A stretch of 37,523 bases of DNA from positions 1-37,523 of the forward strand of contig NZ_JAEUMO010000209.1 in assembly GCF_016793285.1 (NCBI RefSeq), written 5' to 3'. The translations under genes and the position numbers were made by a program. Position 1 is the stretch's first letter; every line of letters starts with the position of its first letter. The notes beneath the pieces were generated by a model that saw only the letters and a list, made by a program, of their open reading frames with translations, was not told the origin of the DNA and made no database searches. Positions 3,324 to 15,573 of this stretch are shown in pieces. The stretch is from Phenylobacterium sp. GTDB taxonomy: Bacteria; Pseudomonadota; Alphaproteobacteria; Caulobacterales; Caulobacteraceae.

Positions 3324-3387
3324 GATGACAGGCTCCGTTCGGGCGCGGGGGTGGTCCGCGGATGGCGATGTGGGCTAAGAGCCCTGC

Positions 3388-4074
3388 ATGAGCCAGGCCG
3401 AGTTCGCGGTCAACTTCTTCGTCGCCCTGTTCGCGCTGATCGATCCGGTCGGCAACGTGCCGCTGTTCGCGGCGGCGACGGGTGGCGTGAAATCGCGCGA
3501 TCGCGCCTGGATCGCGCTCTACATCTCGCTGTTCGTCTTCGGCTTCCTGACCTTCTTCTACTTCTCGGGGCTCAGCCTGCTGGAGTTCTTCGGGATCTCG
3601 CTGGCGGCGTTCCGGATCGCGGGCGGGATCATCCTGCTTCTGCTGGGCCTGGAGATGGCCCGCGACGACTTCACCGCCAGCTTCACCGAGGCGGCGGACA
3701 CCACGACCGGCACCGGCCGCGCGTTCGTCAGGAAGCGCTTCGAGCGGATGATCGTGCCGTTCGCCATGCCGCTGCTGATCGGTCCCGGCGCGATCTCGAC
3801 GGTGGTGATCTACGCCAGCCAGGCGCGCCAGTTCGGCATGCAGGGCGCCGCCGTGGGCGTGGGCGCGATCGCCGCCGTGGGCCTGGCCACCCTGCTGTCG
3901 TTCCTGGCGACCCCGATCCTGACCCGCCTCCTGGGCCGCATCGGCCTCACCATCGTCGTGCGCGTGCTGGGCCTGATCCTCTGCGCACTCGCGGTCCAGT
4001 TCATCCTGGCCGGCCTCGCCGAGAGCACCACCGGCTTCATCCGCCCGAGCGTGGCCAAGCCCTACGGGCACTAG
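3388..4074 (+). CDS. MarC-family integral membrane protein (UPF0056)
   Basis: A 228-aa polytopic membrane protein. FVALFALIDPVGNVPLFAA near residues 11-29 is the conserved first-helix motif of the MarC/YchE/YhgN family. Several further hydrophobic segments follow, including FGFLTFFYFSGLSLLEFFGI and IIVPFAMPLLIGPGAISTVV; the latter matches the second conserved Pro/Gly-rich region. Function is unknown in the family: the old link of MarC to multiple antibiotic resistance was not upheld, and substrate transport is only presumed. Start ATG at 3388 has only a weak upstream purine stretch. It converges on the SDR gene, with a GC palindrome (4084-4099) between them. Confidence 0.9.
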   Translation: MSQAEFAVNFFVALFALIDPVGNVPLFAAATGGVKSRDRAWIALYISLFVFGFLTFFYFSGLSLLEFFGISLAAFRIAGGIILLLLGLEMARDDFTASFTEAADTTTGTGRAFVRKRFERMIVPFAMPLLIGPGAISTVVIYASQARQFGMQGAAVGVGAIAAVGLATLLSFLATPILTRLLGRIGLTIVVRVLGLILCALAVQFILAGLAESTTGFIRPSVAKPYGH

Positions 4075-4083
4075 ACCGGGTTT

Positions 4084-4099
4084 CTCCCCCCGGGGGGAG
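4084..4099. repeat. Perfect 16-bp GC palindrome between convergent genes
   Basis: CT-C6-G6-AG reads identically on both strands and sits in the 29-nt gap between the ends of marC and the SDR gene. It could act as a bidirectional transcription end, but it has no loop and no T-run on either side, so terminator function is weak inference. Confidence 0.4.
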
Positions 4100-4103
4100 C
4101 AAC

Positions 4104-4904
4104 TCATGTCTTCCGCAACCGCCCGCTCTGGCTGGCCATCAGGGCCAGGGCCCAGTCCTCCGGGATCGCGCGGGCGAAGCCGGCGATGGCCTTGTTGACC
4201 GCGCCCGGCACGCAGACGGGGCGGTTGGCCTCCGCGGCGCGCCAGCCGGCCTCCACCACCGCCCCGGCGTCCTGCCAGATCCAGCGGGGCAGCGAGGCGT
4301 CGGCGCGTTCGCGCGTGCCGTTCACGTCATGGAACTCGGTCCAGGTGAAGCCCGGACACAGCGCGGTCACATGCACGCCGAGCGGCCGCAGCTCCAGGTG
4401 CAGGCTCTGGGAGAACCGCACGAGGAACGCCTTCGACGCGGCGTAGAGCGTGTGTCCCCCCGCGGCCGGCAGCAGGCCCGCCAGCGACGCCACGTTGACG
4501 ATCCGCCCGAAGCGCCGCTCGCGCATGCCGCCCGCGACCCGGTGCGCCAGCTCGCAGGGCGCCGTCACCATCACCTGCACGAAGGCCTGCTGGTCGGCCC
4601 ACGACGTCTCGGCGTAGGTCCCGCCCAGTCCGTAGCCGGCGTTGTTGATCAGCACGTCGACCGATCGGCCGCGCGCGGCCAGGTGGTCCAGGATCCCGCC
4701 GGGCGCCTCGGGATCGGCGAGATCGGCCGCCACCGTCAGCGCCTCGACACCGTGACGCGCGCGGATCTCGCCGGCGAGCGCGTCCAGCCGGGCGGCCCGC
4801 CGCGCGGTCAGCGCCAGGTCGTAGCCGCGCCCGGCGAGGGCGCGCGCGAAGCCCGCGCCGATGCCCGCCGAAGCGCCCGTCACCAGCGCCAGTTTGCGAT
4901 CCAT
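4104..4904 (-). CDS. Short-chain dehydrogenase/reductase (SDR), DltE-like
   Basis: A 266-aa classical SDR, an NAD(P)-dependent oxidoreductase of unknown substrate. Visible motifs are the nucleotide-binding TGASAGIG at 9-16, Asp61-Leu in VAADLADPE, NNAG at 87-90, and the catalytic Ser140 (NVASLAG) and Tyr154-x3-Lys158 (YAASK). The open frame extends 47 codons further upstream, but I chose ATG at 4904. It starts exactly before the first beta-strand (MDRKLALVTG) and has GGAGGG about 8 nt upstream. ALTARRAARL after the first strand suggests an NADP preference. It is divergent from kup with a 184-nt shared upstream region. The substrate cannot be told from the sequence. Confidence 0.9.
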   Translation of the reverse strand: MDRKLALVTGASAGIGAGFARALAGRGYDLALTARRAARLDALAGEIRARHGVEALTVAADLADPEAPGGILDHLAARGRSVDVLINNAGYGLGGTYAETSWADQQAFVQVMVTAPCELAHRVAGGMRERRFGRIVNVASLAGLLPAAGGHTLYAASKAFLVRFSQSLHLELRPLGVHVTALCPGFTWTEFHDVNGTRERADASLPRWIWQDAGAVVEAGWRAAEANRPVCVPGAVNKAIAGFARAIPEDWALALMASQSGRLRKT

Positions 4905-5088
4905 GTGCGTCCCTCCAGCGCGGCGGCCCGAAACCCGGGCGGCCGATAAGCCGTTCAAGGCCCAGGTTGCAGCTATTCGCCTGACCGGCGCCATGCGATT
5001 GAACGGCGCCCGGATTGGGTGTATTCGCGCCCGCCGCGACGGCATGGGGCCGCCTTGGGGACCTCGCGGGGCTCCCCGGAGATACTGG

Positions 5089-7047
5089 ATGGCTGAGCAG
5101 GCCGTCGACGGAAAGCCGTCCGAAGACCCGTCGCATTCCCCGAACGGCTCGGCCCCCGGCGGTCAGGCCAACGGACACTCCGCGCACGCGGAGGGTTTCT
5201 GGGCGCTCGCGCTCGGCTCGATCGGGGTGGTGTTCGGCGACATCGGCACCAGTCCCCTCTACGCCATGCGCGAGGCGCTGGGGCATTCGCGCGGCGGCGG
5301 CGGCGGCGAGATGGCCGTGCTCGGCGTGGTCTCGCTGATCACCTGGGCGCTGATCCTGATCGTCACGGTCAAGTACGTGATCTTCCTCATGCGGGCCGAC
5401 AACAAGGGCGAGGGCGGCACGCTCGCGCTCATGGCCCTGGCCCAGCGGGTGATGCCGCGACGCTCGACGTTCGTGTTCTTCCTGGCGGTGTTCGGCGCGG
5501 CGCTGTTCTACGGCGACGGCATCATCACGCCGGCGGTGTCGGTGCTTTCGGCCGTCGAGGGCCTGCGCGACGCGCCGGGCGTGCCCAAGAGCGCCGACGG
5601 CCTGGTCCTGCCGATCTCGGCGGGCATCCTGATCGCGCTCTTCCTCGTGCAGTCGCGCGGCACGGCGCTGGTCGCCAAGTTCTTCGGGCCGATCACCGCG
5701 GTGTGGTTCCTGACGCTGGCGGGCCTGGGCTTCTACCACCTGGCCGACGACCTCTCGGTCTTCCGCGCGCTCTCGCCGCACTACGGGGTCAGCTTCCTGC
5801 TCGACAACGGCTTCCTGGGCTTCGTGATCCTGGGCAGCGTCTTCCTGGCCGTGACCGGCGCCGAGGCGCTGTACGCCGATATGGGCCACTTCGGGAAGAA
5901 GCCGATCCGCGTCGCCTGGCTGGGCTTCGTGCTGCCCTGCCTGCTCGTGAACTACCTGGGCCAGGGCGCCCTGGTGCTCGCGAACCCCGAGGCGCGGTCC
6001 AATCCCTTCTTCGAGATGATTCCCGAGATCGCCTACTGGCCGGTGCTGATCCTGGCGACCATCGCCACGGTGATCGCGAGCCAGGCGGTGATCACCGGCG
6101 CCTTCTCGATGACCCAGCAGGCCGTGTCGCTGGGCCTGTTCCCGCGGATCGACATCCGCCGCACCTCCGAGACCCAGGCCGGGCAGATCTACGTGCCGCA
6201 GGTGAACACCTTCCTGCTGGTGGGCGTGCTGCTGCTGCTGTTCGTCTTCCGCACCAGCTCGAACCTGGCCTCGGCCTACGGCATCGCCGTCACCGGCGCG
6301 ATGTTCGTCGACACCCTGCTGTTCTTCTTCATCGTCCGCCACCTCTGGAAGCGGCCGGTCTGGCAGGCGGTCGCCGCGTCGACCGCGTTCGGCGTGCTGG
6401 ACGTGGTGTTCATCACCTCCAACCTGCTCAAGTTCTTCCACGGCGCCTGGCTGCCGCTGGCGCTGGGCGGGGCGCTGGTGGTGATCATGTGGACCTGGAC
6501 CCGCGGCGCGCAGATCCTCTACGACAAGAGCCGGCGCGACTCCGTGCCCCTGGCCGAGCTGGCCGACATCCTGAAGGCCCGCAGCCCCTATCGCGCGCCC
6601 GGCACCGCCATCTTCCTGACCAGCGACCCCGACATCGCGCCCGTCGCGCTGATGCACAACCTCAAGCACAACAAGGTGCTGCACGAGAAGAACATCATCC
6701 TGACGATCCACACGGCCGAGACGCCGCGGGTCGCCGAGGAGAAGCGGGTCCGGATCGAGCCGCTGAACGACGACTTCAAGAAGCTGATCATCGCCTACGG
6801 CTTCATGGAGAGCCCGAACATCCCCAAGGCCCTGGGTCTCTGCCGCAAGCTGGGCCTGAAGTTCGACATCATGGCCACCAGCTTCTTCCTGGGGCGGCGC
6901 AGCGTGGTGCCGTCGGCGCAGTCGGGCATGCCGCTCTGGCAGGACAAGCTCTTCATCTTCCTGATGAAGAACGCCGCCAACCCGACCGACTTCTACAAGA
7001 TACCGCCGGGCCGCGTGGTCGAGATGGGGACGCAGGTCACCGTCTAG
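5089..7047 (+). CDS. kup: Kup-type potassium uptake protein
   Basis: A 652-aa K+/H+ symporter of the KUP/HAK/KT family in the cytoplasmic membrane. The signature GSIGVVFGDIGTSPLYAM lies near residues 44-61. About twelve hydrophobic segments follow up to about residue 480, including FYGDGIITPA and the conserved GHFGKKPIRVAW loop, then a soluble C-terminal domain of about 150 residues. The frame is open back to 4861, but ATG at 5089 fits best: it has GGAG about 8 nt upstream and leaves a short polar N-tail (residues 1-38) before the first helix. A small membrane-protein gene begins at the very next base after the stop, implying coupled translation. Kup systems are usually constitutive and no regulator site is evident. 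Confidence 0.95.
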   Translation: MAEQAVDGKPSEDPSHSPNGSAPGGQANGHSAHAEGFWALALGSIGVVFGDIGTSPLYAMREALGHSRGGGGGEMAVLGVVSLITWALILIVTVKYVIFLMRADNKGEGGTLALMALAQRVMPRRSTFVFFLAVFGAALFYGDGIITPAVSVLSAVEGLRDAPGVPKSADGLVLPISAGILIALFLVQSRGTALVAKFFGPITAVWFLTLAGLGFYHLADDLSVFRALSPHYGVSFLLDNGFLGFVILGSVFLAVTGAEALYADMGHFGKKPIRVAWLGFVLPCLLVNYLGQGALVLANPEARSNPFFEMIPEIAYWPVLILATIATVIASQAVITGAFSMTQQAVSLGLFPRIDIRRTSETQAGQIYVPQVNTFLLVGVLLLLFVFRTSSNLASAYGIAVTGAMFVDTLLFFFIVRHLWKRPVWQAVAASTAFGVLDVVFITSNLLKFFHGAWLPLALGGALVVIMWTWTRGAQILYDKSRRDSVPLAELADILKARSPYRAPGTAIFLTSDPDIAPVALMHNLKHNKVLHEKNIILTIHTAETPRVAEEKRVRIEPLNDDFKKLIIAYGFMESPNIPKALGLCRKLGLKFDIMATSFFLGRRSVVPSAQSGMPLWQDKLFIFLMKNAANPTDFYKIPPGRVVEMGTQVTV

Positions 7048-7500: not shown

Positions 7501-8727
<1,227 letters not shown>

Positions 8728-8731
8728 CCGC

Positions 8732-8938
8732 TCAGGCGTCGAGCCGGTTGTAGGGGTACTGGTCGCGGATCTCGGCGTGGAAGAACCGGCCCTTGGAATC
8801 CGCCTCCAGGAACGCGCGGCAGACCTCGCCCGGCACGCCCACGTAGACGTAGCGCTCGCCGCTGGCGAAGCGGACCAGCAGCTTGGTGTGATCCTCGTCG
8901 TAGTCGATGGCCGCGATGGCCTCTGAGTCGACGTCCAT
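8732..8938 (-). CDS. KTSC domain protein
   Basis: A 68-aa single-domain protein matching the KTSC pattern (Lys-tRNA synthetase C-terminal-like small domain): IAAIDYDEDHTKLLVRFASG, then a YVYVGVPGEVCRAFLEADSKG stretch (about 30-50) and a C-terminal GRFFHAEIRDQYPYNRL. The role is not established in the family, though nucleic-acid binding has been suggested. ATG at 8938 is chosen because it starts the conserved domain, although the frame stays open upstream. It converges on argG and is divergent from the MAPEG gene. Confidence 0.85.
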   Translation of the reverse strand: MDVDSEAIAAIDYDEDHTKLLVRFASGERYVYVGVPGEVCRAFLEADSKGRFFHAEIRDQYPYNRLDA

Positions 8939-9479: not shown

Positions 9480-9562
9480 GCGCAACACGGCAACCACAAT
9501 TGCGGCCAAGTGTTGAGCTTCCTGGTCCCCGGATGGGAACTCTGAGACTTCGAGACCTGCCA

Positions 9563-10147: not shown

Positions 10148-10189
10148 CCCGCCGCCCGACCGCGCCCTGCGCGCGGATCGTCGACAAAA

Positions 10190-10312
10190 GATTCGCCCTC
10201 CGGAGCGTCCGCCGCCGCGCGGCGGACGAATAGGATTCGGGACGCCGGCCGGCGGCGGTCCGGCTTCACTTGATCGCCGCCGCGCGGTGATGTTGAGTCC
10301 CGGTCGGGATTC
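10190..10312. promoter_or_regulatory. Cluster of four GANTC (CcrM-type) sites upstream of the caspase gene
   Basis: GATTC at 10190-10194, GATTC at 10234-10238, GAGTC at 10295-10299 and GATTC at 10308-10312 all lie within the 196-nt noncoding gap before the caspase-like gene. In Caulobacterales GANTC is methylated by CcrM and can make promoters cell-cycle dependent. The sites are seen; methylation and regulation are inferred. Confidence 0.5.
10206..10228. terminator. Strong GC hairpin after the lipoprotein gene
   Basis: A perfect 10-bp stem (CGTCCGCCGC / GCGGCGGACG) with a 3-nt loop lies about 60 nt after the lipoprotein stop and about 115 nt before the next start. No T-run follows, so it may be a factor-assisted terminator or a leader structure. 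Confidence 0.5.
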
Positions 10313-10343
10313 CTGCCCGCTATGCGGCTGGAGGGTGAAGTTG

Positions 10344-12383
10344 ATGCGTAGGGCGACCGCGGAACGGCCCCGGTCGGCGCGCCGCTGGCAGGCGGTCGTC
10401 GTCGCGGTGGCGCTGAATGTCGTCGTCGTGCCGGGGGCATGGGCGGCGCAGCGCGTGGCGCTGATCGTCAGCGTCTCGAAGTACGACAAGGTCCCCAGCC
10501 TCGCGAACCCCGCCAAGGACGCCAAGCTGGTGCAGGCGACCCTGCAGAAGCTGGGCTTCACGGTGAAGGTGCTGAACGACCCCAGCCGCCTGCAGCTCAT
10601 CGAGGGCCTCGGCGCGTTCGAGGAGGACGCCAAGGGCTCGGAGGCCGCGGTCGTCTACTACGCCGGCCACGGGGCCATGATCGACGGCGTGAACTACCTG
10701 CTGCCCAAGGACGCCATCTCGACCAACAAGTCGACGCTGACCGCCAGCTCGGTGGAGTCGGCCCTGCTGGGCCAGTCGCTGATGGGCGCGAAGGCCGTGC
10801 GCCTGATCATCCTCGACGCCTGCCGCAACAACCCCACCGCGACCCGCAGCCTGGGGGGCAACACCCGCGGCCTGGCGCGCGAGGCGGGCCCCACCAGCGT
10901 CGCGGTCGTGACCCTGATGGCCGCCGGCCCCGGCCAGGTGGCGCAGGACGGCGCCGCGGGCGCCGCCAACAGCCCGTTCGCCATCGCCCTCACCCAGGGC
11001 ATGACGCGGCCCGGCATCACCGTCGGCGAACTGCCCAGCTACGTGCAGGCCGAAGTCGAGCGGATGACCGAGGGCGAGCAGACACCCGACCTGCAGGGGA
11101 TCTGGCCCAACGTCCACTGGAGCTTCGACCCCAACGGCCCCGCGAAGCAGGCTTCGGCCGCGCCCGCCGCCGACGTCACCAAGATCAAGTGGGAGAAGGA
11201 CCAGGTCTTCTGGACGTCGATCAAGGACTCCGACGACCCGGCCGACTTCAAGGCCTACATGGACGCCCAGGACCGTGGCGAGATCTCGGGCTCGTTCCGC
11301 AAGCTCGCGTCCAACCGCATCCGCGCGCTCGAGAAGCTGCCGGCGGGCTCGTTCCAGGTCGCGTCGCGCTCGGCGGCGCCCGGCCAGGAGTTGGTCGGCG
11401 CGGCCCGCGACGCCTTCGCCCGCGGCGACTACAAGGCCGCCTTCCGCGACTGGTCGACCGCCGCCGGCCAGGGCAACGGCGCGGCCATGTACAACCTCGG
11501 CGTCATGTCGCTCACCGGCAAGGGCGCCCCCAAGGACGTCAACGCCGCGGCCAGGTGGTTCAAGAGCTCGGCCGACGCCGGCCACTCCGGCGGCATGGTC
11601 AACTGGGCGCTCTGCCAGCTCAACGGCTTCGGCGCCGCCAGGAACGAGGGCGCCGGTTTCCAGACCCTGCAGCGGGCCGCCGATCGCGGCTCGGCCACGG
11701 CGATGGGCATGCTGGCCGAGGCCTATCTGCGCGGCCGCGGCGCCGCCCAGGACCCGCGCCAGGCGGCCGGCTGGCTGCAGAAGGCGGTGGACGCCGGCGA
11801 CGGCCCCTCCATCGCCCAGCTCGGCGACCTCTACGAACGCGGCGTCGGCGTGCCGAAGGACGGCCGCCGCGCCTTCACCCTCTACCAGCGCGCCGCGGTG
11901 GCCGGCGACACCGACGCCATGGTGCGGCTGGGCTACGCCTACGAGGACGGCGAGGCGGTGGCGAAGGACGACGTCCAGGCCGCCACCTGGTATCAGCGCG
12001 CCGCCGAGGCCGGGAACAGCGAGGGCATGTCGAGCCTGGCCGTGATGTTCGAGAACGGCGCGGGCCTGACGCAGGACTACGGCCGCGCCGCCGACTACTA
12101 CCGGCAGGCCGCGAACGCCGGCGACGCCCGCGGCTATCTGGGCCTGGGCAGCCTGACCGCGCGCGGCGCGGGCGTGCGGGCCAACACGGCCGAGGCGGTG
12201 AAGCTGTTCCAGCAGGCCGCAGACCGGGGCAGCGCCGCGGCGATGCGCAACCTGGGGATCATGTACGAAGGCGGTCAGGGCGTGGCGGCAAACCGCGCCA
12301 GGGCCGTCGAATGGTATCGCAAGGCGGTCGCGGCGGGCGACCAGGGCGCGCAGGGCGAGCTGGACCGCCTGGGCGCGCGATAG
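10344..12383 (+). CDS. Exported caspase-like (peptidase C14) protein with Sel1 repeats
   Basis: A 679-aa protein with an N-terminal signal peptide (hydrophobic about 16-30, likely cleaved after AWA near 34). A caspase p20-type domain follows (about 36-255), with catalytic His109 in VVYYAGHG and Cys160 in LIILDACRNNP. It also has the usual SPFAIAL and TEGEQTPD signatures. A linker region (about 270-350) leads into about eight Sel1-like repeats (about 370-672), of the type AMYNLGVMSLTGKGAPKD and AMRNLGIMYEGGQGVAANR, which form a protein-binding solenoid. ATG at 10344 has GGAGG about 9 nt upstream; an in-frame ATG at 10287 is less likely. Prokaryotic caspase homologues cleave after Arg/Lys or act as stress or death proteases. 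The substrate here is unknown, and export suggests a periplasmic or envelope target. A gene for an exported SH3 protein follows 102 nt downstream. Confidence 0.9.
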   Translation: MRRATAERPRSARRWQAVVVAVALNVVVVPGAWAAQRVALIVSVSKYDKVPSLANPAKDAKLVQATLQKLGFTVKVLNDPSRLQLIEGLGAFEEDAKGSEAAVVYYAGHGAMIDGVNYLLPKDAISTNKSTLTASSVESALLGQSLMGAKAVRLIILDACRNNPTATRSLGGNTRGLAREAGPTSVAVVTLMAAGPGQVAQDGAAGAANSPFAIALTQGMTRPGITVGELPSYVQAEVERMTEGEQTPDLQGIWPNVHWSFDPNGPAKQASAAPAADVTKIKWEKDQVFWTSIKDSDDPADFKAYMDAQDRGEISGSFRKLASNRIRALEKLPAGSFQVASRSAAPGQELVGAARDAFARGDYKAAFRDWSTAAGQGNGAAMYNLGVMSLTGKGAPKDVNAAARWFKSSADAGHSGGMVNWALCQLNGFGAARNEGAGFQTLQRAADRGSATAMGMLAEAYLRGRGAAQDPRQAAGWLQKAVDAGDGPSIAQLGDLYERGVGVPKDGRRAFTLYQRAAVAGDTDAMVRLGYAYEDGEAVAKDDVQAATWYQRAAEAGNSEGMSSLAVMFENGAGLTQDYGRAADYYRQAANAGDARGYLGLGSLTARGAGVRANTAEAVKLFQQAADRGSAAAMRNLGIMYEGGQGVAANRARAVEWYRKAVAAGDQGAQGELDRLGAR

Positions 12384-12392
12384 GGTCTCCCG

Positions 12393-12407
12393 GTCCGCTG
12401 CGCGGAC
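12393..12407. other. Short hairpin between the caspase-like and SH3 genes
   Basis: A 6-bp perfect stem GTCCGC/GCGGAC with a TGC loop begins 9 nt after the caspase-gene stop. It lacks a T-run. It may partly terminate or stabilise the transcript between the two genes. Confidence 0.35.
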
Positions 12408-12485
12408 GGGCCGGAACGTGGGAGTGTCGGGCCCCATGTCGCGTTTCGCCAAGCGGAACCGGCGGGGCTCCAGGAGGATGGGGCT

Positions 12486-13976
12486 ATGTTGCAGATGCTG
12501 CGCAGGCGGGGTCTCCGCCTTTCCGTGAGCGCGGTGGCGCTCCTGAGCATGAGCGTCCAGCCGGTGCTGGCCCAGGGCAAGAACGACAGCGTCCTGAACG
12601 CCTGCGGGACCGAGCGCGCGAACCTCGTCAAGCTCGACAAGGACTACAAGGACCTGAAGCGCTCCAAGATGGCCAACGCCGTCGGCGAGGGCATCAAGCA
12701 GGGCGCCATGGTGCTGGCCAAGGGCGTGATGAGCGGCGGCATCCCGGTGGGCGGCCGCGGCGGGGGCGGCGGCTTCGGCAGCGCCATGGGCGGCATGGGC
12801 GGGCTGATGGGCGCCGTCGGCGGCCTCGCCATGCAGAGCGCCGCCCAGCAGCAGGCCGCGCAGGCGCAGCAGGGTCAGCCGCAGGCGTCGCCGCAGGCCG
12901 CCATGTTCGGCCAGGACATGCTCTCGGGCGCCATGGGCCTGCAGATCCCCGGCGTCAGCAACTACGGCGGCTTCAGCGGCAGCGGCGGCGACAACATGAA
13001 GGCCTATGCGGCGCTGGCCGTCCTGGTGGCCATCGTGGCGACCGCGGACGCCTATGCGAAGCTGAAGGAACAGGAAGCCGGCGGCGACCTGAAGAAGGCC
13101 TCGTTCAACATCGACCAGGACGCGGCGCGCCAGCTCACCGTCTCGCGCCAGATCGTGGCGGACGGGACGTCGCTCGCAGACTGCCGGGCCCGCCAGCTCG
13201 GCGACATCAACACCCGCCTGGCCGGCGCCGCCAACGACAAGGACCGCAAGGCGATCCGCCGTGAGCGCACGGACCTCGTCTCGGCGCTGAAGAAGGACAT
13301 CGACCTCACCGGCGACGTGGTCGACCAGCATACCGGCATGGCCAAGACCTTCACGCAGGGCCGCGCCATGACCGACGGCGCCTCGGAAGCCGACGTGCTG
13401 GGCGGCCAGACGCCGGCCTACGCGACCGTGGCCGACACGACCCGGAAGTCGATGCCGAAGGCCGGCGGGGCGCCCGCGGGACAGCAGCAGCAGGCCGCGG
13501 CCCCGCCGGCGGCGCCGCCGCCCTCGTCGCTGGTGGCGATCAAGGCGACGGTGGTCCGCTCGGCGCCGGTGGCCTCCGCCGGCGTGGTCACGAACCTGCC
13601 GGTCGGCCGCGAGATCCGCCCGAAGAACAGCCAGCCCGACGGCGGCTGGTGGGAGATCGACGTGGCGGGCGCCCCCGGCTACGTGCGCGCCTCCGACGTC
13701 GGCCCGCCGGGCTCGGTCCCCGTGCAGACGGCCGCCGCCGCCAAGGCCCCGCCGGCCAAGGGCGGCGCGAAGGGCAAGGGCGTGGTCCAGGCCAAGGCCC
13801 CGCCACCGCCTCCGGTCCCCGCCGGCCCGACCAACATCCGCGCCTACAACCAATCGGTCATCGCCGCGCGCGACACCGGCAAGGGCCGCCTGTCGAGCCT
13901 GATGACCGACATCCAGACCAGCCAGCGCCGGGACAACGTCTTCTACGCCTGGCTCGACGGCCTGCCCTGGAGCTGA
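12486..13976 (+). CDS. Exported Gly/Gln-rich protein with an SH3 domain, unknown function
   Basis: A 496-aa protein with a signal peptide (residues 1-29, PVLA/Q). A Gly/Met-rich stretch (about 80-114) is followed by a Gln/Ala-rich one (115-140). There is one strong internal hydrophobic segment (about 172-190, KAYAALAVLVAIVATADAY), a charged helical region (190-290), an Ala/Pro linker, and a bacterial SH3-like domain (about 348-406; VVRSAPVASAGVVTNLPVG, GWWEI, GYVRASDV). A Pro/Lys/Ala-rich linker and a conserved-looking C-terminal tail follow. AGGAGG lies 8 nt before ATG 12486. The Gly-rich segment resembles glycine-zipper membrane proteins. It shares orientation with the caspase-like gene. 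Binding to the cell wall through the SH3 domain is a guess from the domain. Confidence 0.8.
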   Translation: MLQMLRRRGLRLSVSAVALLSMSVQPVLAQGKNDSVLNACGTERANLVKLDKDYKDLKRSKMANAVGEGIKQGAMVLAKGVMSGGIPVGGRGGGGGFGSAMGGMGGLMGAVGGLAMQSAAQQQAAQAQQGQPQASPQAAMFGQDMLSGAMGLQIPGVSNYGGFSGSGGDNMKAYAALAVLVAIVATADAYAKLKEQEAGGDLKKASFNIDQDAARQLTVSRQIVADGTSLADCRARQLGDINTRLAGAANDKDRKAIRRERTDLVSALKKDIDLTGDVVDQHTGMAKTFTQGRAMTDGASEADVLGGQTPAYATVADTTRKSMPKAGGAPAGQQQQAAAPPAAPPPSSLVAIKATVVRSAPVASAGVVTNLPVGREIRPKNSQPDGGWWEIDVAGAPGYVRASDVGPPGSVPVQTAAAAKAPPAKGGAKGKGVVQAKAPPPPPVPAGPTNIRAYNQSVIAARDTGKGRLSSLMTDIQTSQRRDNVFYAWLDGLPWS

Positions 13977-13989
13977 TCGGCCGCGGCGC

Positions 13990-15573
13990 CTATCCGACCG
14001 CGATCCAGCCCGCGCCGAGGGAGGACAGGGCGACGCCGGCCAGGACCACCTGCCCGCCGCCGCCCAGGCTGACGATGGTGTCCGCCCCGCTCTGGGCGAG
14101 CGAATAGGTCGTCCCGAAGTCCAGGACGAGGCGGTCGCCCTCGGCGAAGCTGAAGTCGGCGATCCGCTCGAGGCCCGCCTCGCCGAATGCGTGGAAGGTG
14201 TCGGCGCCCGCGCCGCCGGTCAGGGTGTCGCTGCCGCGGTCGCCCGAGAGGTAGTCGTCGCCGGCGCCGCCGAAGAGCAGGTCGTCCTGCTGGCCGCCGC
14301 GCAGCGTATCGTCACCGGAACCTCCCTCGCAGGTGTCGTTCCCGAGGTTGCCGTAGACGAGATCGTCGCCGGCGTCGCCGGACAGCCGGTCGTCGTCCTT
14401 GCCGCCGACCACCCAGTCGTCGCCGGAACCGCCCGAGGCCGTGTCGGCGCCCTGGTTGCCGTTGATGTCGTCGAAGCCGGCCGAGCCCTGCAGCACGTCG
14501 TCGCCCTCGCCGCCGCGCATGACGTTGCCCGTGACGCCGCCCAGCAGCAGGTCGTCGGCGGACGTGCCGGTCATGGACACGACGCGGGGCGAGAGCAGGG
14601 CCCGCAGCGCCGCGGCGCCGTCGGCCACCGGGGCCAGGATGACCCGCCCGGTCTCGCTGACGTCGCTCGACTCGAGGATCGTCAGCCGCATGGTCGCGTT
14701 GTCGTCGACCGTCAGCCCGTCGATGCGGGTCAGGCGGATGTACGAGTTCCGGTCCAGCAGCGCCTGGACCGTGTTGTTCTCGACGGCGACGTCGACCGCG
14801 TGGTCGACGGTGATGGCGTTGTAGGTCGAGCCGACGAGGATGTTGCCGCGGATGATCACCCGCTCGTAGGGCAACCCGCCGTTCTCGTCGCGCAGGCAGA
14901 TGCCCTGCACGTAGTAGCCGTCGCCGCGGCTGAAGATGTTGTCCTCGACGAGGATGTCGTGCGCCGAGGCGGTGGTGTTGGTGGTCCAGAACTGGATCAC
15001 GTCGCCGTGGTCGCCGTCCTTGATGTGGAAGTCGCGGAAGCTGTTCCGCGCAATGGTGACGTTCGACGAACCGCCGCCGCGGACGCCGTCCATCCTGAGG
15101 TCGTGGAACTCGTTGTCGCTGATCGTCAGCCGCGTGTCGTCGAGGTGGCTGATCGCCCAGTAGAGCTGCTCGAACGTCGAATGGGTGACGCTGACGTCGG
15201 CGCTCCCGCGGATCTGGAGCCCGCCGACGTCGTCGGTCGGGTCGCCGTTCAGGGAGCCGTGGAAATAGACGCGGTCGAACGCGATCCGCTCGCTGCCGCT
15301 CACCAGGTTCGGGATGGCGCCGTCGTCAGGATCGGCCAGCAGGGTGAGGCCGCGGAAGGTGATGCCGCCGCTGTTCTGGACGTTGAGGCCCGAGATTTCG
15401 GCGGGCGACCGGCTGTCCTGCGAGGTGATCGTGATCCCTGCGCCGGCGAAGGTCAGCTTGCTGATCGCGACGTCGTCGTACCGGCCGGCGGCCAGGGCGA
15501 TCACGTCGCCGGGCTGCGCAGCCCGCAGGGCGGCGGCGAGCGCCGCCGCGTCGCTCACGGCGACCACACTCAT
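13990..15573 (-). CDS. Right-handed beta-helix protein with RTX calcium-binding repeats
   Basis: A 527-aa protein that appears secreted but has no N-terminal signal peptide. Residues about 20-320 show parallel beta-helix features: many short Asn/Asp-rich repeats such as ISDNEFHDL, ITFRGLTLL, ILVEDNIFSRG and VIIRGNILVG, as in pectate-lyase or alginate-epimerase-like folds. Residues about 338-460 carry RTX nonapeptides (GGEGDDVLQG, GGSGDDTLRG, GGAGDDYLSG, GGAGADTF). A C-terminal ADFSFAEGDRLVLDFG segment is typical of type I secretion substrates. No type I secretion genes are in the window. Enzyme activity is not certain; polysaccharide binding or lysis is likely from the fold. ATG 15573 has GGGGG about 8-12 nt upstream. 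The gene converges on the SH3 gene, 13 nt apart. Confidence 0.88.
   Translation of the reverse strand: MSVVAVSDAAALAAALRAAQPGDVIALAAGRYDDVAISKLTFAGAGITITSQDSRSPAEISGLNVQNSGGITFRGLTLLADPDDGAIPNLVSGSERIAFDRVYFHGSLNGDPTDDVGGLQIRGSADVSVTHSTFEQLYWAISHLDDTRLTISDNEFHDLRMDGVRGGGSSNVTIARNSFRDFHIKDGDHGDVIQFWTTNTTASAHDILVEDNIFSRGDGYYVQGICLRDENGGLPYERVIIRGNILVGSTYNAITVDHAVDVAVENNTVQALLDRNSYIRLTRIDGLTVDDNATMRLTILESSDVSETGRVILAPVADGAAALRALLSPRVVSMTGTSADDLLLGGVTGNVMRGGEGDDVLQGSAGFDDINGNQGADTASGGSGDDWVVGGKDDDRLSGDAGDDLVYGNLGNDTCEGGSGDDTLRGGQQDDLLFGGAGDDYLSGDRGSDTLTGGAGADTFHAFGEAGLERIADFSFAEGDRLVLDFGTTYSLAQSGADTIVSLGGGGQVVLAGVALSSLGAGWIAVG

Follow-up and report, generated by a model that had tools for sequence, protein, structure and literature searches.

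An exported-looking caspase-Sel1 protease and its steady SH3-bearing neighbour in Phenylobacterium: a candidate two-component envelope unit

Bacterial caspase homologues are mostly treated as cytoplasmic stress or defence proteases, and to our knowledge little is known about the substrates and controllers of those that are exported. What might a caspase do outside the cytoplasm, and what would hold or control it there? This question is raised by two genes in a stretch of 37,523 nucleotides (nt) of Phenylobacterium sp. (contig NZ_JAEUMO010000209.1; hereafter the window). An earlier note on this DNA described two consecutive same-strand genes, one for a signal-peptide caspase with an intact His109/Cys160 dyad and Sel1 repeats, the other for a 496-amino-acid exported partner with a Gly-rich segment, one hydrophobic helix and an SH3 domain. 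We recovered all of these features (Table 1), with signal peptides and lipoboxes assigned by eye and hydropathy here and throughout. The reading that we favour, tentatively and at somewhat short of an even chance, is a two-component exported unit, in which the caspase-Sel1 protease is combined with a partner that acts as its envelope anchor or scaffold.

A full-length caspase orthologue was present in 18 of the 101 genomes of the genus, and the partner followed directly downstream on the same strand in all 18, with 15–103 nt between the matches (in G095 the partner was cut by the contig end). In the 17 genomes besides that of the window, the caspases were 73–97% and the partners 66–92% identical to those of the window, which indicates that both genes are more than chance open reading frames (ORFs). 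Among named sequences, the partner gene was closest to one from a Phenylobacterium metagenome-assembled genome (89% over the best segment). These searches scored few first-look candidates per genome, so that misses are possible. A partner match was obtained in 23 of the 101 genomes; left out of the pair count were four with weak, SH3-only matches (G002, G007, G023, G075) and G119, where a diverged partner (46%) was preceded only by a Sel1 end, with unrelated sequence beyond. G061 also stands outside this count, its caspase being cut at the end of the stretch and the position of the partner lying beyond view. At family level, a first partner search matched 91 of 390 genomes, mostly through the SH3 domain alone. 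A partner profile freed of SH3 matched 22 of the 390, namely 19 Phenylobacterium genomes, G137, G138 and G369.

Adjacency within the genus is by itself weak evidence, because the genes upstream are conserved too and shared ancestry could explain the arrangement. What we take to be argG, a MAPEG-type gene and a small ORF (at 9551 in the window) preceded the pair in 10 of 10 named loci, and a presumed kup did so in all eight loci that showed it; these labels were given by eye. The pair was also kept in G137 and G138, which belong to another genus of the same family. Here the two genes overlap by 4 nt, and the other neighbours tested from the window, including those of the argG side, were all missing from the stretches of 8.4 and 9.0 kb. 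The conserved-adjacency check proposed in the earlier note thus found the homologues side by side in 18 of 18 genus genomes and in two genomes of another genus. A functional link, which that note had offered as inference, is now supported by this pairing, by its retention in other surroundings, and by the same modules being fused in single proteins.

Such fusions were found when the full partner profile was searched against 385 genomes of the class. Apart from the window itself there were seven matches, each to the SH3 part. In five of them (L096, L097, L098, L100 and L101, but not L099 and L102) the protein had a caspase domain that passed the Pfam cut-off; the SH3 scores of L097 and L098 fell short of the SH3_3 cut-off. 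In L098, a single chain unites Sel1 repeats, SH3 and caspase, which are all the modules of the pair. L096, L097 and L100 share the linker motif that follows the caspase domain in the window protein; this motif was present in the window caspase, in the G138 caspase and in 4 of the 10 SH3-bearing caspase ORFs tested. Signal peptides were seen in four of the five fusion proteins, while the L100 ORF is missing the beginning of the domain. The Phenylobacterium arrangement differs from these fusions in that SH3 is carried by a separate, adjacent protein with helical and glycine-rich parts of its own.

The caspase protein itself passed both Pfam cut-offs, with 98 bits for Peptidase_C14 (cut-off 21.4) and 189.9 bits for Sel1 (cut-off 30.7). 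Its intact His109-Cys160 dyad is that of an orthocaspase-type C14 homologue. In the signal-peptide region, Ala32, Ala34 and Ala35 were invariant among 11 sequences and Trp33 nearly so. The earlier count of about eight Sel1 repeats was close: seven stretches pass singly in Pfam, and the helix pairs of the predicted model (residues 348–676) suggest about nine. A fold search of this model against the PDB returned Sel1 and other helical-repeat proteins as the best 50 matches, with no caspase among them. For the caspase domain, the closest PDB entry was the paracaspase MALT1, which has the same Asp-x-Cys pattern, the Asp two residues before the Cys being kept. According to the available text of a paper on such enzymes, C14B proteases cleave after basic residues (PMC6426788). 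On these two grounds, the window caspase should by analogy cleave after Arg or Lys.

The partner consists of a probable signal peptide, a helix, a Gly/Gln-rich stretch, a hydrophobic helix, a conserved helical region, a Pro-rich linker, SH3_3, a second linker and a C-terminal helix. Its SH3_3 match reached 22.8 bits, under the Pfam cut-off of 27; the relatives in G369 (26.4), G138 (22.4) and G119 (14.9) were likewise under the cut-off, and that in G574 (49.1) was over it. Cys40 and Cys233, the only cysteines of the partner, were invariant in 18 of 18 sequences and also occurred in the G369, G446 and G574 relatives, the pattern that a disulfide in an exported protein would give; a disulfide is therefore probable. 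The predicted model has helices at residues 207–247 and 251–297, and its low-confidence, probably flexible stretches include 62–169 and 291–377. The hydrophobic helix at 173–191 aligned near the second glycine-zipper helix of distant relatives. A TrbK-like match (E 0.23–0.56) was dismissed as chance.

Which known envelope proteins does this partner resemble? P0003, the homologue in G369, was first matched weakly (E 3.3e-4). Compared with an 18-sequence partner profile built without G369, it was matched with 99% probability, SH3 included. After removal of SH3, and again with G369 left out, P0003 scored 75.9, whereas 200 local shuffles reached at most 27.9. In the same SH3-free comparison P0008 (G446) scored 58.1 and P0007 (G574) 37.8, against shuffle maxima of 29.2 and 26.0, respectively, and nine other proteins scored 12.1–19.4. 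Five distant relatives matched VI_TagQ, the NCBIfam model of the type VI secretion lipoprotein TagQ (P0003, E 8.1e-8; G574, 2.3e-5; G446, 1.4e-9; G792, 6e-10; G728, 1.1e-7), at scores of 23.8–38.9 bits that lie far from the curated cut-off of 300 (NF041250). The matches span residues 24–162 in P0003 and 39–221 in P0008, which is more than a zipper.

The neighbours of these relatives were of different kinds. P0003 is preceded, 86 nt upstream, by an exported-looking Trypsin_2-domain protein (one locus, longest ORFs). With G369 included, the SH3-free profile matched four genomes of the class besides that of the window, and in 4 of 4 the relative stood directly downstream of an FGE-sulfatase-domain protein, the row as a whole running ABC ATPase, FtsX permease, FGE, TagQ-like (the permease matches of L170 and L171 fell slightly short of the Pfam cut-off). 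G792 and G574 gave no VipB match, so rows of this kind occur apart from VipB. The rows of L170 and L171 also hold a protein with a VWA domain upstream and a small ORF, a lipoprotein by eye, downstream.

TagR presumably has an FGE-like fold; a literature look-up turned up no supporting paper. The order of these rows corresponds to that of tagT, tagS, tagR and tagQ in Pseudomonas aeruginosa (PA0073–PA0070), according to the available text of PMC6657622. The window pair resembles TagQ-TagR of the H1 type VI secretion system (T6SS) of this species (PA0070, PA0071) in combining an exported protein with a glycine-zipper-type envelope protein, and the partner's distant relatives match VI_TagQ and sit in the ABC-FtsX-FGE-TagQ-like order. 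The differences are that the exported protein is here a caspase-Sel1 protein rather than FGE, and that the partner is without a lipobox, has an added SH3 and lacks TagST-like neighbours. We regard the partner as a distant TagQ relative, connected by these intermediates, and think that it works like TagQ.

The earlier note had left the partner as substrate, anchor or inhibitor. The comparative evidence favours the anchor or scaffold over the other two guesses: the exported-looking proteins that precede members of the partner's family have three different, unrelated folds (caspase, trypsin-like and FGE), a pattern that would hardly be expected for a protease substrate. In the mechanism that we propose, the caspase-Sel1 protein would be a periplasmic cysteine protease whose Sel1 solenoid offers a protein-binding surface. 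The partner would be membrane-associated through its hydrophobic helix and probably wall-associated through SH3, and it would recruit and position the protease, as the outer-membrane lipoprotein TagQ is needed for recruiting periplasmic TagR. It would thereby serve as anchor or scaffold, perhaps also as sensor. The caspase, once released or activated, probably by envelope damage, would then cut an envelope protein after Arg or Lys.

Several observations weigh against this reading. The fusion count of five in seven is weakened by a background in which 5 of the 30 best SH3_3 loci from 142 class genomes were caspase proteins as well, a figure that comes from a motif test with 1500-nt flanks that could conceal more caspases. 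SH3 and caspase domains thus co-occur generally in the class, and the enrichment of fusions is suggestive, not strong. The SH3-less relatives L170 and L171 were only marginal in the profile comparison (41.4 and 36.2, against best shuffles of 39.1 and 33.0, respectively). The window partner gave no VI_TagQ match up to E 1 and is therefore not classed as TagQ, and among the SH3-removed family members only 1 of 13 matched, which is taken to be G369. At E up to 1, the same model weakly matched 7 of 14 control genomes and six other places in the window genome, none of them over the model cut-off, so that part of the TagQ signal is probably a generic glycine zipper. The putative link between partner and TagQ is, moreover, transitive, through intermediates. 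By eye, the window partner has no lipobox and no Cys ending its hydrophobic part; Cys40 follows a polar stretch and aligns, in the G446 and G574 relatives, with a second Cys outside the lipobox that these two possess. No ABC, FtsX or FGE gene was seen beside the window pair, whose neighbours are the argG- and MAPEG-type genes and an RTX gene. VipB of T6SS was found in 0 of the 19 Phenylobacterium genomes with the pair or the diverged partner, and a T6SS component in Phenylobacterium was set aside on this ground; among the 26 genomes searched, VipB occurred in four (G137, G138, G446 and G728), so that in the other genus, with G137 and G138, a connection of the pair to T6SS is possible. Finally, the AlphaFold model of the partner had a mean predicted local distance difference test (pLDDT) value of 42.9, too low for the model to be used in a fold search, and the other predicted model was likewise poor in its caspase part.

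If the partner were instead the substrate, the caspase would cut a flexible linker and free either the hydrophobic, Gly-rich part or the SH3 part, in a gasdermin-like manner. Caspase-like proteases that cleave an adjacent gasdermin are known, and the long, probably flexible stretches of the partner, together with its hydrophobic helix, would suit such a fate. We nevertheless consider this unlikely, because the relatives of the partner follow an FGE-domain protein at all four class loci and a protease of another fold once, and because family-model scans matched no gasdermin-like family to the window protein, on which ground a gasdermin-like partner was rejected. The bacterial gasdermin system is likewise a small unit with a caspase-like protease, and it acts in the cytoplasm; in contrast, both window proteins look exported.

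The partner could also be mainly a regulator rather than a tether, keeping the caspase inactive or switching it on at wall or membrane damage. Its steady pairing with an enzyme agrees with this, as does the description of TagQ-TagR as envelope sensors in the available text of PMC6657622. However, the sequence offers nothing that separates a regulator from an anchor, and the presence of SH3 within the caspase chain elsewhere suggests targeting over inhibition; regulation as the main role therefore seems improbable to us. That two functionally unrelated genes are adjacent only through block inheritance of the region is very improbable, since, for all the conservation of the upstream genes within Phenylobacterium, the other genus keeps the pair without those genes and with overlapping ends, and the pair's modules are fused elsewhere.

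Beyond the anchored caspase of the window, it is possible, though doubtful, that the pair belongs to a family of envelope units, each made of two exported proteins, that combine a TagQ-like glycine-zipper/SH3 anchor with exchangeable partners (TagR-like FGE, trypsin-like or caspase-Sel1). The Phenylobacterium pair would then be a damage-sensing, envelope-held caspase that works beyond the cytoplasm and separately from type VI secretion. If the partner is indeed an anchor of the TagQ type, sensing by TagQR would belong to a wider group of envelope units with exchangeable enzymes, and such units would occur in genomes where VipB was not found. In any case, a compact and steady partner provides a directly testable handle on the role of an exported caspase.

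How new is this arrangement? The earlier note called solenoid-bearing periplasmic caspases less described, which is only half right: in the available text of a 2012 survey, Sel1 occurred in 40 of 671 prokaryotic caspase homologues, and N-terminal helices, possibly signal peptides, were noted (PMC3501461). The metacaspases and orthocaspases with Sel1 of that survey share with the window protein the C14 His-Cys dyad and the Sel1 repeats. They differ in having no comparable partner, as far as its main text goes, in which 'SH3' has 0 occurrences. In Bradyrhizobium, the available text of another paper describes a secreted caspase with tandem YARHG domains, proposed by its authors as peptidoglycan-binding (PMC3355149). 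Within the open-licence literature, of limited coverage, we found no description of such a caspase-partner pair, and the steady partner, the partner family and the exchangeable enzyme-like neighbours seem new. A known anti-phage defence system was rejected as an explanation, as PADLOC matched its caspase model only (E 4.4e-8) and the partner gave no match up to E 1. A plasmid-borne system was likewise rejected, since tblastn of P0002 and P0003 against plasmids gave no match. At the G369 locus (L106), the ORFs that flank the protease-partner pair (873–2415 and 8115–8888) look integrase/transposase-like by eye, so this pair may be mobile; its partner protein P0003 gave no plasmid match.

The features of the window pair are listed in Table 1. 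The longest ORF of the caspase gene begins with GTG at 10287. We preferred the ATG at 10344, which has GGAGG at 10330–10334, 9 nt ahead; with this start, the residue numbering of the earlier note is reproduced exactly, and its left edge at 10148 includes about 200 nt of upstream DNA. A simple scan of the gap between the two genes gave no terminator-like site on the + strand. The sigma-70 scan gave no promoter-like site, which says little in a G+C-rich alphaproteobacterium. Six terminator-like sites were found, all on the minus strand (mean of 2.0 in shuffles), which carry little weight in such a genome.

Table 1. Features of the caspase-Sel1 gene and its partner gene in window coordinates.
Feature	Position	Strand	Basis
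Exported-looking caspase-Sel1 protease gene, 679 amino acids	10344..12383 (stop included)	+	ORF, start choice, Pfam C14 and Sel1, orthologues
Probable Sec signal peptide, cleavage probably Ala-Trp-Ala / Ala	10344..10445	+	Hydropathy 2.2 over residues 17–35
Caspase (Peptidase_C14) domain	10452..11093	+	Pfam PF00656, E 8.9e-28
Catalytic His109 codon, in YYAGHG	10668..10670	+	Invariant in 11 sequences; aligned with MALT1 YYAGHG
Catalytic Cys160 codon, in LDACRN	10821..10823	+	Invariant in 11 sequences; aligned with MALT1 LDMCR
Post-caspase linker, motif W-x2-[IV]-[KRQ]-x-S-x2-P-x2-[FY]-x2-Y	11211..11336	+	Motif scan
Sel1 solenoid, about nine repeats, edges approximate	11376..12353	+	Pfam PF08238, E 2.2e-57; predicted helix pairs
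Intergenic gap, 102 nt	12384..12485	+	Between caspase and partner genes
Exported-looking SH3 partner gene, 496 amino acids	12486..13976 (stop included)	+	ORF, orthologues, alignment
Probable Sec signal peptide, without lipobox	12486..12572	+	Sequence and hydropathy
Cys40 codon, probable disulfide	12603..12605	+	One of the partner's only two cysteines, invariant
Gly/Gln/Ala-rich stretch, residues 83–167, length varies among orthologues	12732..12986	+	26 Gly of 85; alignment
Hydrophobic helix, residues 173–191	13002..13058	+	Mean hydropathy 1.79; sole internal hydrophobic segment standing out
Conserved helical region, residues 200–300	13083..13385	+	Main part of homology to TagQ-matching proteins; profile comparison
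Cys233 codon, second invariant cysteine	13182..13184	+	Alignment
Bacterial SH3 domain (SH3_3), residues 357–405	13554..13700	+	Pfam PF08239, E 1.1e-4, under the curated cut-off

Downstream of the partner, a convergent gene on the minus strand (13990–15573) encodes a beta-helix protein with RTX calcium-binding repeats, for which a search of 13 related stretches gave no match at E 1e-8. The window genome contains further caspase loci (L002, L003, L174 and L175), in which no ORF passed the motif test, so that they stand outside the linker-motif comparison. L174 (G000:C206, 2867–4456) encodes another exported-looking caspase homologue, which carries a DUF4384 domain and a DACHSG motif. In L175 (G000:C98), a ThsA-type macro-domain protein (2113–2997) precedes a 1003-amino-acid caspase-DEAD helicase fusion (3382–6393), and these two genes are possibly a defence pair.

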